From the NCBI GenBank assembly GCA_017547845.1, contig JAFYNZ010000067.1, positions 1 to 34,010 of the forward strand: a DNA stretch of 34,010 bases, given 5' to 3'. Under the pieces are notes generated by a model. That model ran no database searches. It saw nothing but the letters and a program-made list of their open reading frames with translations, and was not told where the DNA came from. The stretch comes from Muribaculaceae bacterium. Lineage in GTDB: Bacteria > Bacteroidota > Bacteroidia > Bacteroidales > Muribaculaceae. A program made the translations under genes and the position numbers. Positions 7,871-30,426 of this stretch are shown one piece after another (the stretch's first letter is position 1; the number at the start of each line of letters is the position of its first letter).

Positions 7871-7902
7871 TTTGCAACTCTACCAAATTCTGCTTAACTT
7901 TG
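7871..7902 (+). promoter_or_regulatory. Bacteroidales-type promoter of the HU/SPOR gene
   Basis: TTTG at 7871-7874 and TAACTTTG at 7895-7902 are separated by 20 bp, an exact consensus match. The start site would be near 7908, giving a leader of only about 25 nt before the TTG start at 7933. This supports that start codon. Confidence 0.8.
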
Positions 7903-9501: not shown

Positions 9502-9533
9502 TTTGGTCAGTTCAAAAAAAGGTCGTAACTTTG
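9502..9533 (+). promoter_or_regulatory. Bacteroidales-type promoter of the tRNA pair
   Basis: TTTG at 9502-9505 and TAACTTTG at 9526-9533 have a 20-bp spacer, an exact consensus. The start would fall about 45 nt before tRNA-Gly. Confidence 0.85.
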
Positions 9534-9586: not shown

Positions 9587-9659
<73 letters not shown>

Positions 9660-9685: not shown

Positions 9686-9769
9686 GTCCGGGTGGTGGAA
9701 TTGGTAGACACGCTACTTTGAGGGGGTAGTGGCCGTGCGGCCGTGTGAGTTCGACTCTCATCTCGGACA
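9686..9769 (+). tRNA. tRNA-Leu (anticodon GAG)
   Basis: The 84-nt length with a long variable arm (GGCCGTGCGGCC) identifies a class II tRNA. The acceptor GTCCGGG pairs with CTCGGAC with one wobble. The anticodon stem CTACT/GGTAG closes a 7-nt loop with anticodon GAG, which reads CUC and CUU leucine codons; CTC is heavily used in the neighbouring genes. The discriminator is A, as expected for Leu, and CCA is not encoded. Confidence 0.96.
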
Positions 9770-19508: not shown

Positions 19509-19551
19509 AAAAAAGCCGATGCTCACATTGTTTAAAACATGACCACCGGCT
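19509..19551 (-). terminator. Intrinsic terminator of the structured RNA
   Basis: On the minus strand AGCCGGUG (19551-19544) pairs with CAUCGGCU (19521-19514) over 8 bp, with further pairs above (UCAU with AUGUGA), followed by a run of six Ts at 19514-19509. It ends 40 nt before the nitroreductase ATG. Confidence 0.85.
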
Positions 19552-19773
19552 CTATATTGCCCACACCAAAGGAATGTGATGAAACTCCGTATGACAGGAT
19601 TTGAGTGCCGTTCAATCTTTGTAATCCGCCTGCGCTTAAAGCGACACCCGAAGGTGTGGGGCCCGCCATTGACGGAACAGCTTGTCTCGGTATTTCATTA
19701 AAATTTGATGAGTTTCCCAATCTGCTTTGATGTGGAATATCTCCTTCTTAAAGTTCGCTTACTTTAACTTTAA
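19509..19773 (-). ncRNA. Structured non-coding RNA, 6S-like rod or attenuator leader
   Basis: The minus-strand transcript of about 265 nt folds into nested helices. P1 is CCACAUCAAAG (19725-19735) with CUUUGGUGUGG (19561-19571), 11 bp with one wobble. P2 is GAAACU with AGUUUC (19711-19716, 19581-19586). P3 is CCG-GACA with UGUC-CGG (19683-19690, 19587-19596). P4 is CCGUCAAU with AUUGAACGG (19668-19675, 19608-19616). P5 is ACACC-UUCG-GGUGU (19644-19657). A separate 5' hairpin (UUAAAGU/ACUUUAA) and a terminator flank the rod. A long irregular rod with promoter and terminator fits 6S RNA or the Bacteroidales-1 class, which I know only by description. The alternative is a cis leader of the nitroreductase gene. 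The 62-codon frame across it starts at TTG without support. Confidence 0.7.
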
Positions 19774-19778
19774 CAACA

Positions 19779-19810
19779 CAAAATTACTACTAATGGTTCA
19801 ATTATCCAAA
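19779..19810 (-). promoter_or_regulatory. Bacteroidales-type promoter of the structured RNA
   Basis: On the minus strand TTTG (19810-19807) and TAATTTTG (19786-19779) are 20 bp apart, an exact consensus. Transcription would begin near 19773, at the 5' hairpin of the RNA. Confidence 0.85.
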
Positions 19811-19954: not shown

Positions 19955-22519
19955 TTAGAACCAACGCACATATGCGAAGTCCTGACGATGAGGGAGCGCA
20001 GGGTTGTTAGGATACATACGGAGAGCGAAACGGTAGACACCTGCTTCCTTGATGGTATCGTTGATAGCGTAAGTGAGCACTGAGCCTTCTTCTGCAACAA
20101 CTTCGAGTGGCTTAGAAAGATAGAACTTGCTTTCGCCGTCGATTTCCTTATAGAGCACAATTTCTACGCCGATAGACTTGCCGAGACCCTTAGTGTCGAT
20201 GCGGCAATCGGCAGTGTAGTTAGAACCTGTCTTAGGAGCGTTGTTAAGGTTAGGGTCATTGAGGTTAACAGAGAGCACTTCTACTTGATCCCACTTAGAA
20301 GCTACCTCTTCCTTCCATGCCACGATCTGACGAGCTTCAGCACAGTTGTCGGCAGCAATGCGAGCTGCACGCTTAGCTTGAGGAGCATAGAAACGATCGA
20401 TGTAGTCGTCGAGCTGACGCTTCATAGTGAAGTTAGGAGCGATGTGGCCTACAGAACGCTTGATATATTGAATCCATTCAGGTGAGTAGCCCTTAGAGTT
20501 CTTAGCGAAGTACAATGGCACGATTTCGTTTTCAAGCATAGAGTAGATAGTCGCTGCGTCGAGTTTGTCTTGCTGGCTTTGGTCTGTGAAAGTGCGCTTT
20601 TCGGTCAATGCCCAACCACCCTTTTCATCAAACTTGTAGCCTTCGTACCACCAACCGTCAAGCACTGAGAAGTTGAGGACACCATTCATTTCAGCCTTTT
20701 CACCAGATGTACCTGATGCTTCGAGAGGACGAGTAGGAGTATTCAACCAGATGTCGACACCTGACACGAGACGCTTAGCCACGATCATGTTGTAGTCTTC
20801 AAGGAAGATAATCTTACCCAAGAATTGTGGCATACGAGAGATCTCCATGATGCGCTTGATCAAGCCTTGACCGGCACCATCGGCAGGGTGAGCCTTACCT
20901 GAGAAGATGAATTGTACAGGGAATTGCTCGTTGTTGACAATCTTAGCAAGACGATCGAGGTCGGTGAAGAGGAGGTGAGCACGCTTATATGTAGCGAAAC
21001 GACGTGCAAAACCGATAATCAATGCGTTAGGGTTAATCTTGTCGACAATCTTCATCACAGCTGATGGGTCACCTTGGTTGGCAAGCCATTTTTCTCTGAA
21101 GTCTTTCTTAACGAAGTCGATGAATTTGTTTTTCATCGTCATACGCATGTTCCAGATTTCTTCGTCAGCCACCTTGAAGATGCCATCCCATGCTTCAGGA
21201 TTGCTTTGGTCTTCAAACACTTGCTTACCGAGCTTTTCAGCGTAGAATTCTTTCCATTCAGAAGCAGCCCAAGTCGGCATGTGTACACCGTTTGTGACAT
21301 AACCTACGTGTGACTCTTCAGGGCTGTAGCCTTTCCATACGCCTGAGAACATCTTCTTTGACACTTCGCCGTGGAGCCAGCTCACGCCGTTTGCTTCTTG
21401 GCAGGTGTTGAGTGCGAATACGCTCATAGAGAAGCGTTCGTTTGAGTCAGGGTTTTCACGGCCCATGTTCATAAGGTCGCTCCAAGAGATACCGAGTTTA
21501 GCAGGATATTCGCCGAGGTATTTGCCGAAGAGAGATTCTTCGAAGTAGTCGTGACCTGCAGGCACAGGAGTGTGAACTGTGTAGAGTGAAGAAGCGCGAA
21601 CGATTTCGAGTGCTACGTTGAATGACAAGCCGTCGTTTTGGATGTAGTCCACCAAGCGTTGAACGTTCATCAATGCAGCGTGACCTTCGTTGGCATGGTA
21701 TACTTCTGTGTGGATACCGAGCTTATTGAGCATAAGCACACCACCGATACCGAGCAAATACTCTTGCTTGATACGGTTTTCCCAGTCGCCACCATAGAGT
21801 TTGTGAGTGATCTGACGGTCGTACTCTGAGTTCATGTCGAAGTCTGTGTCGAGCAAGTAGAGCTTCATGCGACCGACGTTGACTCTCCAAACGTGAGCGT
21901 AAACGATACGACCAGGATATGGCACTTCGAGCACCATTGGGTGACCATCTTCGCCGAGAACAGGCTCAAGTGGAAGTTGGTCGAAGTTTTGAGCTTCGTA
22001 TTCAGCGATCTGTTGACCATCGACAGAGAGTACTTGTGTGAAGTAGCCAAAGCGATAGAGGAAACCGACAGCAGTCATGTTGATGCGGCTGTCAGAAGCT
22101 TGCTTGATGTAGTCACCGGCAAGCACACCAAGACCGCCTGAATAGATCTTCAAGCAGTTGCAGAGACCATATTCCATTGAGAAATAAGCCACAGAAGGAG
22201 CATCTGTGCGCATTGGTTGCTGCATATATTCCTTAAATGAAGCGTACACCTTTTCGATGCGAAGCATCATAGCATCGTCGTTGAGCACCTCTTGGATACG
22301 AGTTGAGCTGATGCGTTGGAGGAGCATTACAGGGTTTTCGCCTGTTGCACGCCATAATTTTTCATCTAAATCACGGAAAAGAGACTTGCCTTCGCTGTTC
22401 CATACCCACCAAAGGTTTTTAGACAACTCTTCGAGTGGCTTGAGGGCTGCAGGCAATTCAGCGCTGACTGTGACGTTGCGCCAATGTGGTTGATTTGTGT
22501 TACTAACCTGTAGTTTCAT
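19955..22519 (-). CDS. glgP: Alpha-glucan (glycogen) phosphorylase, GT35 with DUF3417 N-terminus
   Basis: The 854-residue enzyme releases glucose-1-phosphate from glycogen. Residues 1-115 match the DUF3417 type (LEELSKNLWWVWNSEGKSLFRD), which marks the alpha-glucan phosphorylase branch rather than the E. coli MalP type. AYFSMEYGL, YHANEGHAAL and GFARRFATYKRAHLL are conserved, and the PLP lysine is Lys608 in GTSGEKAEMNG. The C-terminus carries an extra beta-sandwich-like region ending RQDFAYVRWF. The start lies 42 bp after the glycogen synthase stop, so synthesis and breakdown enzymes form one operon. Confidence 0.96.
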   Translation of the reverse strand: MKLQVSNTNQPHWRNVTVSAELPAALKPLEELSKNLWWVWNSEGKSLFRDLDEKLWRATGENPVMLLQRISSTRIQEVLNDDAMMLRIEKVYASFKEYMQQPMRTDAPSVAYFSMEYGLCNCLKIYSGGLGVLAGDYIKQASDSRINMTAVGFLYRFGYFTQVLSVDGQQIAEYEAQNFDQLPLEPVLGEDGHPMVLEVPYPGRIVYAHVWRVNVGRMKLYLLDTDFDMNSEYDRQITHKLYGGDWENRIKQEYLLGIGGVLMLNKLGIHTEVYHANEGHAALMNVQRLVDYIQNDGLSFNVALEIVRASSLYTVHTPVPAGHDYFEESLFGKYLGEYPAKLGISWSDLMNMGRENPDSNERFSMSVFALNTCQEANGVSWLHGEVSKKMFSGVWKGYSPEESHVGYVTNGVHMPTWAASEWKEFYAEKLGKQVFEDQSNPEAWDGIFKVADEEIWNMRMTMKNKFIDFVKKDFREKWLANQGDPSAVMKIVDKINPNALIIGFARRFATYKRAHLLFTDLDRLAKIVNNEQFPVQFIFSGKAHPADGAGQGLIKRIMEISRMPQFLGKIIFLEDYNMIVAKRLVSGVDIWLNTPTRPLEASGTSGEKAEMNGVLNFSVLDGWWYEGYKFDEKGGWALTEKRTFTDQSQQDKLDAATIYSMLENEIVPLYFAKNSKGYSPEWIQYIKRSVGHIAPNFTMKRQLDDYIDRFYAPQAKRAARIAADNCAEARQIVAWKEEVASKWDQVEVLSVNLNDPNLNNAPKTGSNYTADCRIDTKGLGKSIGVEIVLYKEIDGESKFYLSKPLEVVAEEGSVLTYAINDTIKEAGVYRFALRMYPNNPALPHRQDFAYVRWF

Positions 22520-22561
22520 ATAAAAGTTATTAGTTAAGTTCTACACTATTAATTATAGATA

Positions 22562-24220
22562 TTATGCTTTGAGACGCTCGTCGCGGCGGCTTTGTGCCAC
22601 GGCAAACGCTTCGATATATTTCTCGATAAATTTCGACCAGTCGGCATCAGAGGCTGTCGCCATAGCTTTCTGACGCACCTCTGCCATCTGCTCTGCAGAG
22701 AGGTCGATGAGGGAGAGCAAAGAGTCGGCGATATCCTCGCGAGCTTGGTCGTAGTTGGAGTCGGTGCGAGCAATCACCTTTGCGCCACAAGCTTGTGCAT
22801 CGTTGGCATAGTCGGTGAGAATCCACTGTCCGAAACCTGCCTTGTCGCTTGAGATGGTAGGCACTCCGAATGCGATGCTTTCGAGTGGAGTGTAGCCCCA
22901 TGGCTCGTAGTAAGATGGGAACACTGTAGCATCAAGAGCAGGCATCATGTCGTAGTATGCGATGTTGAGCACGCCGTCGTTGCCATCAAGGTAGCAAGGG
23001 AGATAGACGATAGTCACCTTGCGAGATGCATCGTTGACTCCGAGGGAGCGAAGACGACAGCTGATAGCGTCGCAGTCTTCGTTGTTAAGGCGGTGGGTCT
23101 GATAGTTGAGTTCGGGTGCAGTCCATTGCTCTGACTCCATATTGGCAAGGAGGTCGCTTGCAGGCTCTTTCACCCATGCCGGCACCATGATGAATGCCAC
23201 GACTTCGCGACTATCGGTGGCAAGCTTGTCGCCTACCCTACCCATAGCGTCGATGAAGATGTCGATACCCTTGTTGCGGTACTCGTTACGGCCCGATGTA
23301 GCTACGATGAAGGCGTCGTCGGCAAATGTCTTGCCTGTGAGCTTACTTGCCACATTGAGCAATGCCTTGCGAGCTGACTGACGCTGAGTCTGGTATTTCT
23401 TACCGGTAGGCACAAAGTTTGGCTCAAAACCGTTAGGAGTCACCACTTGAGGCATGAGGTCGAGGAGCTGACGACACTCGATGGCTGTCACATCGCTGAC
23501 CGTAGTGAAGCAGTCGGCATTGTGGGCAGCAGTCTTTTCGAGAGAGTGCTTGGACTCCATGTTGAGTTCGCCTGCCATCTGGTCGCCGTTGTAACCCGAG
23601 AGGTAGTCGTACAATGGTTTGCCGTTGCCGCAGATACTACGGCCAATGCTTGTGGCGTGAGTAGTGAATAGTGTCGCAATCTCCGGGCAGAGTGTGCGAA
23701 GGTGAAGAAGTCCCATGCCTGTGGTCCACTCGTTGAAGTGAGCGATGACGTTCTTAGGGTCTTCCTTGAGGTGATTGGTCAAAGCAGCCATGACGATAGC
23801 TGATGCGATGCCGAATGCGCAACCCTCATCGTAGTCGCCGTAGGCATGAAGAGAGTCGACGCGGAAATTGTTCCAGATTTCGCCGTAGTAGTGATTAAGG
23901 TGCTCATAGACACCGTCAAACTTCACAAGCACTACAATCGGATTACCGGGAATCATCCATCGACCTACTCTGATGCTGATGCCGTGTGGCAACTCGAGAT
24001 TCTTGACACAATTCTTGAGGAGCGACTTGTACTCCTTGAAGTATGGTGAGGGGTTTTCTTCTGTCCACACATCCGGACCGATAAACACCACTTTATCCTT
24101 GTTGATATCTTGGAGAGTTTTTGCTTTTGTAGACAAGACGGTGTAGATACCTCCTATTTTGTTGCATACTTCCCAACTTGTCTCAAAAATCAATCTATCT
24201 TTTAGAGTGCAATTATGCAT
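22562..24220 (-). CDS. Glycogen synthase, eukaryote-type GT3 family
   Basis: The 552-residue protein belongs to the GT3 family of yeast and animal glycogen synthases rather than GT5 GlgA. The donor-binding N-terminus reads EVCNKIGGIYTVLSTKA (17-33), HFNEWTTG (161-168) lies in the acceptor cleft, TSGRNEYRNKGID (308-320) is typical of GT3, and the catalytic EPWGYTPLE (439-447) is intact. GT3 enzymes can use UDP-glucose; which sugar nucleotide is used here cannot be read from sequence. The N- and C-terminal phosphorylation extensions of eukaryotes are absent. It is the first gene of the glycogen operon. Confidence 0.95.
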   Translation of the reverse strand: MHNCTLKDRLIFETSWEVCNKIGGIYTVLSTKAKTLQDINKDKVVFIGPDVWTEENPSPYFKEYKSLLKNCVKNLELPHGISIRVGRWMIPGNPIVVLVKFDGVYEHLNHYYGEIWNNFRVDSLHAYGDYDEGCAFGIASAIVMAALTNHLKEDPKNVIAHFNEWTTGMGLLHLRTLCPEIATLFTTHATSIGRSICGNGKPLYDYLSGYNGDQMAGELNMESKHSLEKTAAHNADCFTTVSDVTAIECRQLLDLMPQVVTPNGFEPNFVPTGKKYQTQRQSARKALLNVASKLTGKTFADDAFIVATSGRNEYRNKGIDIFIDAMGRVGDKLATDSREVVAFIMVPAWVKEPASDLLANMESEQWTAPELNYQTHRLNNEDCDAISCRLRSLGVNDASRKVTIVYLPCYLDGNDGVLNIAYYDMMPALDATVFPSYYEPWGYTPLESIAFGVPTISSDKAGFGQWILTDYANDAQACGAKVIARTDSNYDQAREDIADSLLSLIDLSAEQMAEVRQKAMATASDADWSKFIEKYIEAFAVAQSRRDERLKA

Positions 24221-27535: not shown

Positions 27536-27870
27536 ATGAATTCATTAAAATTTGATGGTCGAGCGTGCAACTATCGTGCCAAATCTTGCTGCCACCCATC
27601 TCCCGACCACCCTCTGCCCTGCATTGCTCACCGACATCGACACCTTTTCTCTGAGAGGCAAATAAACTTTTCTGCCGTAAATCAATCCAATATTTAGAGC
27701 AAATGCTTCTTTCCGAAGGAATATGGCTTGAAACGACCGATTTTTTTGGAAGATTATTTTAGTATGTGCCACTTTTTTCCTAACTTTGTACTATCTTTTG
27801 ATAAATAGTGACATCTGTCAAATCATCAACTATTTGACACAAACGTAGAAATAGAATTAATTAACATCAA
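27536..27870. other. Divergent clpC-gyrA intergenic region
   Basis: This 335-bp region separates two divergent genes. The gyrA promoter is at 27757-27788. No consensus promoter for clpC could be found on the minus strand, and no CtsR- or CIRCE-like inverted repeat is apparent. The short frames here have no support. Confidence 0.6.
27757..27788 (+). promoter_or_regulatory. Probable gyrA promoter
   Basis: TAACTTTG at 27781-27788 is an exact -7 element. At the right distance (20 bp) the -33 position has TTTT rather than TTTG. The leader would be about 77 nt. Confidence 0.6.
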
Positions 27871-30426
27871 ATGCAAGAAGAGGATAAAATAATTCCGATT
27901 AATATCGAGTCGGAAATGAAAAGTGCCTACATCGACTACTCTATGTCGGTGATCGTATCCAGAGCATTGCCTGACGTGCGTGACGGCTTCAAGCCGGTGC
28001 ACCGTCGTGTGATGTACGGTATGAAAAAGTTGAACAACAATTTTTCCGGCGAAACCAAGAAGTCTGCTCGTATCGTGGGTGAAGTAATGGGTAAATACCA
28101 CCCTCACGGCGACTCTTCTATATACAACACCATGGTCCGTATGGCTCAAGACTGGTCGCTACGCTACCCTCTCGTCTACGGCCAAGGCAACTTCGGCTCT
28201 GTCGACGGCGACTCTGCTGCGGCTATGCGTTACACCGAGGTCAAGCTCGAACGCATCGGTGAAGAAATGCTTCGCGACATCGACGCTGACACTGTAGACT
28301 TTGTGCCTAACTTCGACAACACTCTCACCGAGCCTACCGTGCTACCTACCCGTATACCCAACCTCCTTGTCAACGGCTCGTCGGGTATCGCTGTCGGTAT
28401 GGCCACCAACATGCCTCCTCACAACCTCTCAGAAGCCCTCGACGCTTCTATCGCCCTTATCGACAACCCTGAGCTCGAAATCAAGGACCTCATGGAATAT
28501 GTCAAGGCTCCCGACTTCCCGACAGGCGGCGAAATCTTCGGCCTCCAAGGCGTCAGAGATGCTTATGAGACAGGTCGCGGTCGCGTCATCATCCGCGCTA
28601 AAGCCGAAATCGTGCCGGGCGACACTCACGACCAAATCGTCATCACCGAAATCCCATACGGCGTAATCAAAAACGACCTCGTCAAGAGCATTGCCGACCT
28701 CGTAGTAGAGAAAAAGGTCGACGGCATCGCCGACATCACCGACCTCTCGGCTCGCGGCAAGATGAACATCACCATCGACATCAAGCGTGATGCCAACGCC
28801 AACGTGGTGCTCAACAAGCTCTTCAAGATGACTCAGCTTCAGACATCGTTCAGCGTCAACAACGTCGCCCTCGTCAACGGCCGCCCTCGTACGCTCAACC
28901 TCAAAGAGATACTATCGGCATTCATCGACCACCGTCACGAAGTAGTCATCCGTCGCACACGCTTCGAACTCAAAAAGGCTGAAGAACGCGCCCACATCCT
29001 CAAGGGATTGATGGTCGCTTGCGACAACATCGACGAAGTAATCAGCATCATTCGCTCTTCAAGCAACACCGAAGTCGCTCGCGAACGCCTCGCTCAACGC
29101 TTCGACCTTGACGAAATTCAGACTCGCGCCATCGTCGAAATGCGCCTCCGTCAGCTCACAGGCTTGGAAATGGACAAGTTGCGTAGCGAATACGAAGAAC
29201 TCATCCGTCACATCGAATACCTCAACGAAATCCTCAACAACGACGTCGTATGTCGCAACGTCATGAAAGAGGAGCTCGAAGAAATACGCAACAAATATGG
29301 CGACGAACGCCGCACCCTCATCAAGCCATTCACAGGCGAATTCAACGAGGAAGACTTCTATCCTAACGACGAGATGATCATCACCATCTCTCACCTCGGC
29401 TACATCAAGCGCACTCCGCTCAGCGAATTCCGCGCTCAAAACCGTGGTGGCGTCGGCGCTAAAGGTAGCGACACTCGCGACACCGACTTCATCGAGCACA
29501 TCTACCCTGCTTCCAACCACAACTATATGCTATTCTTCACTCAGAAGGGTCGCTGCTACTGGTTGAAAGTCTACGAAATCCCTGAAGGCAACAAGAACTC
29601 TAAGGGACGCGCTATCCAAAACCTCCTCAACATCGACTCCGACGACTGCGTCAACGCATTCATCCGCGTCAAGCACCTCAACGACGAAGAGTTCACTTCG
29701 AGCCACAACCTCATCTTCTGTACCAAGAAAGGTATCATCAAGAAGACATCGCTCAAGGCATACTCTCGTCCACGCTCAAACGGTGTCAACGCTATCATCA
29801 TTCGCGAAGACGACCAAGTCATCCAAGTACGCTTGACCGACGGCAACTCTGAAGTCATCATCGCCAACAAGGAAGGTCGCGCCATCCGTTTCCACGAAAG
29901 CAACGTGCGCGAAATGGGTAGAATGTCGACCGGCGTTAAAGCCATGACTCTGGGCGAAAACGACGACGAAGTAATCGGCATGATCACCATGACCGGCAAG
30001 GAAAACGAGACTGTAATGGTAGTGTCAGAAAAGGGCTACGGCAAACGCTCTGCCCTCGAAGACTATCGCATCACCAACCGTGGCGGTAAAGGTATCAAGA
30101 CACTCGCCGTGACCGAAAAGACAGGCTCACTCGTAGCCATCAAGAATGTCACCGACGAAAACGACCTCGTCATCATCAACAAGAGCGGTATTACCCTTCG
30201 CATGTCGGTGGCCGACATTCGCGTAATGGGTCGCAACACTCAAGGCGTCAAACTCATCGACCTCAACAAGCGCGGCGACTCCATCGCCTCTGTCTGCAAA
30301 GTCGACTCTGACCCTGAAGAAGAAACCGTAGCCACTGTCGAAGGCGACCAACCTATGTCGACACCACAAGTCCAAGAGCCTCAAGCAGACGCTACAAAAA
30401 CTCCATCAGAAGAAACTCAACAATAA
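27871..30426 (+). CDS. gyrA: DNA gyrase subunit A
   Basis: The 851-residue subunit cuts and rejoins DNA during ATP-driven supercoiling. The catalytic tyrosine is Tyr121 in AAMRYTE. The N-terminal winged-helix domain and QRDR (75-121) are followed by the coiled-coil gate and a six-bladed C-terminal domain. The blade containing the GyrA box shows [10 protein letters not shown], a relaxed form of the consensus, and a second NRGGKG occurs later. Ser82 corresponds to E. coli Ser83, but the position of E. coli Asp87 is Asn86 here. The last 35 residues are an acidic, Gln-rich tail. Confidence 0.95.

Follow-up and report, generated by a model that had tools for sequence, protein, structure and literature searches.

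The locus considered here lies in a window of 34,010 nucleotides, the whole stretch of DNA that was analysed, from the genome of a Muribaculaceae bacterium (contig JAFYNZ010000067.1). It raises the question of what is made from the minus strand between positions 19810 and 19509, where a promoter, a long rod-like fold and a terminator had been recognised from the letters alone, and where the original prediction had offered 6S RNA, the Bacteroidales-1 RNA class or an undescribed RNA as possible identities.

Identification of the RNA family

A search of the region with Rfam covariance models identified RF01693 (Bacteroidales-1) on the minus strand, the match extending over positions 1–179 of the 179 in the model with a score of 123.9 bits (E 2e-20); the gathering threshold for this family is 60 bits. 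Judged by sequence and model, the locus is a new member of the already known RNA family Bacteroidales-1, and the match to the full model excludes an undescribed RNA. Rfam describes RF01693 as 'Bacteroidales-1 6S-Bacteroidales RNA suggested', and the 6S RNA of the order is the best reading of this family, in support of the original prediction. The classical 6S model, RF00013, had no hit in the genome, nor in the region at E values up to 10, and was rejected as the family of this locus; the genomes of E. coli and B. subtilis, used as controls, did match it. Weak microRNA matches in the region (E 3.5 and 4.2) were taken as chance. When the window was aligned to the model, the apical-arm pairs of the Rfam structure were present, two places per side being flagged as non-standard pairs. 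The features of the locus are collected in Table 1.

Table 1. Features of the 6S-type RNA locus on the minus strand of the window
Feature	Position	Strand	Evidence
Sigma-ABfr type promoter, TTTG (-33) N20 TAATTTTG (-7)	19810..19779	(-)	exact match
5' leader hairpin, UUAAAGU-AAGCGA-ACUUUAA	19748..19767	(-)	MFE and centroid folds
Bacteroidales-1 RNA (RF01693), putative 6S RNA core	19553..19737	(-)	cmscan
Closing stem, 5' arm CCACAUCAAAG	19725..19735	(-)	pairs with 19571-19561
GGGAAACUCAUC, inner closing helix and 5' side of bubble	19707..19718	(-)	mostly invariant or nearly invariant columns, 60 sequences
Apical arm with AAUGGCGGGCC / GGCGGAUUAC and UUCG-capped 5-bp hairpin (19657-19644)	19607..19681	(-)	covariation, Rfam structure
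CUCAAAUCCUGUCAUACGGAGUUUC, 3' side of central bubble and inner closing helix	19581..19605	(-)	mostly invariant or nearly invariant columns
Closing stem, 3' arm CUUUGGUGUGG	19561..19571	(-)	covariation, 12/12 aligned closing-stem pairs
Intrinsic terminator, interrupted hairpin into T run (19514-19509)	19509..19553	(-)	fold and recurrence across loci

Promoter and terminator

The exact TTTG-N20-TAATTTTG promoter that had been read from the sequence was present on the minus strand upstream of the RNA (Table 1). It conforms to the consensus of the Bacteroidetes primary sigma factor given in PMC7366714, TAnnTTTG at -7 and TTTG near -33. The window contained four occurrences of the pattern TTTG-N20-TAnnTTTG, where 100 shuffles gave 0.09 on average; the further exact matches were at 7871-7902 (+), 9502-9533 (+) and 27840-27871 (-), the one at 9502-9533 lying upstream of two tRNA genes (9587-9659 and 9686-9769). 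The search anchor was present in 181 of 218 related loci, and removal of five that were too short left 176 for a count in which a promoter was defined as TAnnTTTG within 200 bases upstream, preceded at 18–22 bases by TTG. A promoter so defined was present at 164 of the 176 loci (20/25 in the genus, 26/26 elsewhere in the family and 118/125 other loci) and in about 1% of 3520 shuffles. A simple scan for a sigma-70-like promoter at the RNA gene returned none above chance, sigma-70 not being the sigma factor expected here.

The intrinsic terminator of the original prediction was recovered as a hairpin running into a T run in the predicted fold, although a simple terminator scan at the RNA gene reported no terminator above chance; the interrupted stem may escape a scan of this kind. 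Usable ends were available for 179 of 181 loci and sufficient flank for 177, and 135 of the latter showed a terminator-like hairpin (19 of 24 in the genus and 116 of 153 others), compared with 39 of 885 shuffles.

Secondary structure and covariation

The 265-nt RNA (19773-19509, minus strand) had a predicted folding energy of -77.2 kcal/mol (z -3.42), equalled by one of 200 dinucleotide shuffles. In the predicted fold a 7-bp hairpin occupies the leader; a long closing stem is joined by an apical arm that bears a 5-bp stem capped by UUCG, and the 3' end forms a long, interrupted hairpin. All helices had been placed in one rod by the original prediction; the rod itself, with a closing stem, a large central bubble and an apical arm as in 6S RNA, was retained, but the leader and terminator hairpins fall outside it. 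Predicted pairs within the bubble differed between structures.

The helices covary among relatives, the check that had been proposed for them. In the 60 most diverse of 179 usable sequences, aligned without reference to structure, 92.7% of cells in the proposed structure were paired and 26 of 42 pairs had changes on both sides. Cells with changes on both sides numbered 297; 500 shuffles averaged 99.7 and none attained 297, and six control versions, in which the structure was slid by 1–3 columns, gave 40–92. Such changes occurred in every one of the 12 closing-stem pairs and in 13 of the 17 pairs of the apical arm (helices 5–7), the other four of which never vary. Next to the bubble, helices 2 and 3 are nearly constant and had no such change, and helix 4 had one; variation in these three helices, adjoining or within the bubble, is insufficient for proof. 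Similarly, AGUUUC on the 3' side of the bubble can pair with GAAACU on the 5' side (97.5% of cells paired), with variation too low for proof.

Applied to the same alignment, RNAalifold returned the same closing stem and arm with other bubble pairs, and 20 of its 35 pairs had changes on both sides. In an unguided ranking of column pairs from 166 sequences (187 loci less 10 without the search pattern, 5 incomplete and 6 duplicates), the first 13 entries fell in the closing stem or apical arm. In 40 alignments simulated along the tree, the 95% level of the highest value per alignment was 177.9, and just two single pairs lay above it; the claim of covariation is therefore made for helices as a whole, judged against the shuffled and slid controls, and not for individual pairs. 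Whereas the structure line of RF01693 leaves the closing stem unpaired, covariation supports this stem here, so that a complete 6S-type closing stem gains support in the family.

One covarying pair of the GGCC helix (19659/19628 on the minus strand, columns 91/156) is a C-C mismatch in 14 of the 60 sequences, that of the window included; pairing in the adjacent register, with one C bulged out, is conceivable in its place.

The 5' leader hairpin

Leaders with a -7 element were compiled into sets of 45 distinct family sequences and 111 distinct others, some belonging to both and the second set including named Muribaculaceae contigs; 152 were distinct overall. The loop motif [AG][ACG]GNGA was picked from the genus alignment (25 of 26 loci, L192 being without the anchor), which makes the family figure partly circular: six-base-loop hairpins of this motif with a stem of at least four pairs were found in 16 of the 45 family leaders, compared with a mean of 0.20 and a maximum of 1 over 200 rounds of shuffling, and the remaining 29 had no hairpin at this stem length. 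By the same loop and stem criterion, 8 of the 111 other leaders carried one (shuffle mean 0.23, maximum 2). All leader shuffles preserved single-base composition only.

Across all 152 leaders the commonest six-base loop, at stems of at least three pairs, was AAGAGA, with 21 occurrences where shuffles gave 0.22, on stems that vary widely, and its carriers include loci labelled as Barnesiella (L157) and as a Dysgonamonadaceae contig (L097). In 162,683 bases of family loci, AAGAGA hairpins with a stem of at least four pairs occurred eight times in the leader and twice elsewhere. A genome-wide leader motif, GCAAGAGAGC, was rejected: a search of six genomes gave 34 matches, and among the 31 examined TAnnTTTG stood within 70 bases upstream only in five, all within 6S leaders.

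As a recurrent element of 6S leaders the hairpin is possibly new, and we know of no such leader-loop control point in classical 6S RNAs. Tentatively, and with more doubt than confidence, we suggest that 6S RNAs in Muribaculaceae, and in some other Bacteroidales, may carry a second functional module: a leader hairpin whose six-base loop would be fixed (RVGNGA, mostly AAGAGA) and whose stem would exchange freely. A protein or ribonuclease would recognise this loop and so mature, protect or tether the RNA. Our guess at its role would be maturation or protection of the 5' end, and the hairpin offers a lead on how the Bacteroidales 6S RNA is matured.

Distribution and relationship to 6S-Flavo

A single copy of RF01693 was found in the window's genome, which is 89.83% complete. 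Searches of wider samples used stricter filters, at which some weak matches are lost, and detected the RNA in 181 of 198 family genomes, including 139 of the 140 of good quality, in 106 of the 393 genomes that represented the order (76 of them above the cut-off) and in 12 of the 395 that represented the phylum (6 above it). Near-universal presence in the family and one copy here are as expected of a housekeeping RNA. Within the genus 26 of 31 genomes matched; one genome without a match, G845, is 99% complete, and its lack may be an assembly gap or a real loss.

The 6S-Flavo model, RF01685, matched 49 of the 395 phylum genomes (19 over the cut-off) and 28 of the 393 order genomes (none over the cut-off). 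Wherever a genome was matched by both models the two matches lay at the same place and on the same strand (11 of 11). These included five genomes of the order sample (G435, G567, G588, G710 and G742), and all six weak RF01693 matches outside the order coincided with RF01685. Because of this coincidence RF01693 and RF01685 are very probably homologous. For our locus the link to a 6S family already named in this phylum runs through relatives and is in that sense indirect; RF01685 had no match in the window's genome at E 0.001. Both families were without a clan in the Rfam copy used, and the overlap is evidence that they form one homologous group. Our literature search on RF01693 and 6S-Flavo returned the founding paper only, and the link may still be published, for example in Wehner et al. 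(2014); a search combining Muribaculaceae and 6S RNA found none.

A Bacteroidales-1-like RNA with a Bacteroidales-type promoter was also seen on a contig labelled as Clostridiales bacterium (L072, JAMPBP010000007.1), which is probably a mislabelled assembly.

Alternative explanations

Neighbouring genes were named from Pfam matches and counted at loci with 1.2 kb of flank on the relevant side. A nitroreductase gene follows the RNA on the same strand in all 24 genus sequences, as it might if the RNA were a cis-acting element of that gene. We regard this as very improbable: a terminator lies between the RNA and the nitroreductase gene, and the RNA is kept where the gene is mostly missing (present in 0 of 23 other family loci and 9 of 105 of the rest), so that a nitroreductase leader was rejected on a linkage largely confined to the genus. 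On the upstream side the RNA had been described as lying downstream of glgP, which holds in the window but not as a feature of the genus, as a phosphorylase match within 1.2 kb upstream was found at one of 23 genus loci, that of the window itself, and at none of 25 other family loci or 114 others. Membership in a phosphorylase transcript was rejected, the linkage being confined to the window. In the window, genes for a DUF3417/carbohydrate phosphorylase and a glycogen synthase lie side by side upstream of the RNA, at 19955-24220 (-). Translation of a short protein from the 62-codon frame at 19720-19532 (-) is the least credible reading, to the point of being negligible. The frame is open in the window, six of 52 family sequences reach 62 codons (all of them among the 25 of the genus, the window included), and the median open length in the genus is 38 codons compared with 13 in shuffles, 3.4% of which reach at least 61. 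However, an earlier stop interrupts the frame in 19 of the 25 genus sequences and in all 27 of the other family sequences (median 14 codons in the latter), and substitutions follow base pairs. Counted from the start codon, the invariant GGATTAC falls in all three frames among the 25 genus sequences (7, 8 and 10 cases), which means that the frame is not kept, and it was rejected as coding despite open lengths in the genus above those of shuffles. Clear purifying selection on this frame had been named in the original prediction as evidence against an RNA; what was found leaves the RNA standing.

The possibility of a structured sRNA that acts in trans and has no 6S function, such as a base-pairing regulator, is a more serious alternative to a 6S RNA, if still an improbable one. 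It would agree with the lack of an RF00013 match and with the founding paper, in which Table 1 sets Bacteroidales-1 apart from 6S-flavo and leaves a cis-regulatory role open (PMC2864571). It sits poorly, on the other hand, with the overlap of the two families in place and strand in all doubly matched genomes, with a 6S-like layout in which the closing stem covaries, with an RNA that is near-universal in the family and single-copy here, and with a genome in which RF00013 detects no other 6S candidate.

Proposed function and comparison with known 6S RNAs

We consider it highly likely that the locus is the 6S RNA gene of this Muribaculaceae species, transcribed from a sigma-ABfr promoter, whose product would mimic an open promoter and sequester RNA polymerase. 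What was computed here is the family membership, the two covarying stems, the promoter and terminator sequences and the overlap with 6S-Flavo, and on these grounds we take the finding to be the housekeeping 6S RNA. For mimicry and release of polymerase we draw on established 6S biology and on a report from B. thetaiotaomicron, where dRNA-seq is reported to have revealed a 6S RNA together with product RNAs of two classes (PMC7366714). The step from the B. thetaiotaomicron 6S locus to RF01693 rests on the note in Rfam. Transcription would start from the housekeeping-type sigma-ABfr promoter and end at the intrinsic terminator, giving a rod with a covarying closing stem, a largely invariant central bubble and a covarying apical arm. 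By analogy, this rod would mimic an open sigma-ABfr promoter, bind RNA polymerase holoenzyme and lower transcription; on recovery the polymerase would copy a short product RNA off the bubble and so be released. As a guess, the GGGAAACUCAUC block is a candidate template, and the main product RNA would be its complement, starting at about GAUGAGUUUCCC. Inspection by eye of the 3' bubble strand found no TAnnTTTG-like element in sense, so that promoter mimicry leaves no motif to be seen. On the 5' bubble strand the complement often reads TTTGATGAGT, in which the TTT part is not fixed.

Compared with the rest of its family, the RNA of the window shares with RF01693 the conserved blocks GGGAAACUCAUCA, AAUGGCGGGCC, GGAUUACAAAG, CUCAAAUC.UGU and CGGAGUUU, and differs in its own leader hairpin and in the C-C mismatch in the GGCC helix. 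It resembles 6S-Flavo in the similar ACUC...GGAGUUU frame around the bubble, the RF01685 model being shorter, at 108 positions, than that of RF01693. Classical 6S RNA (ssrS) is laid out as a closing stem, a central bubble and an apical arm. The RNA described here is like classical 6S RNA (RF00013) in this layout and, we assume, in function; unlike it, the promoter that it imitates would be that of sigma-ABfr and not that of sigma-70.
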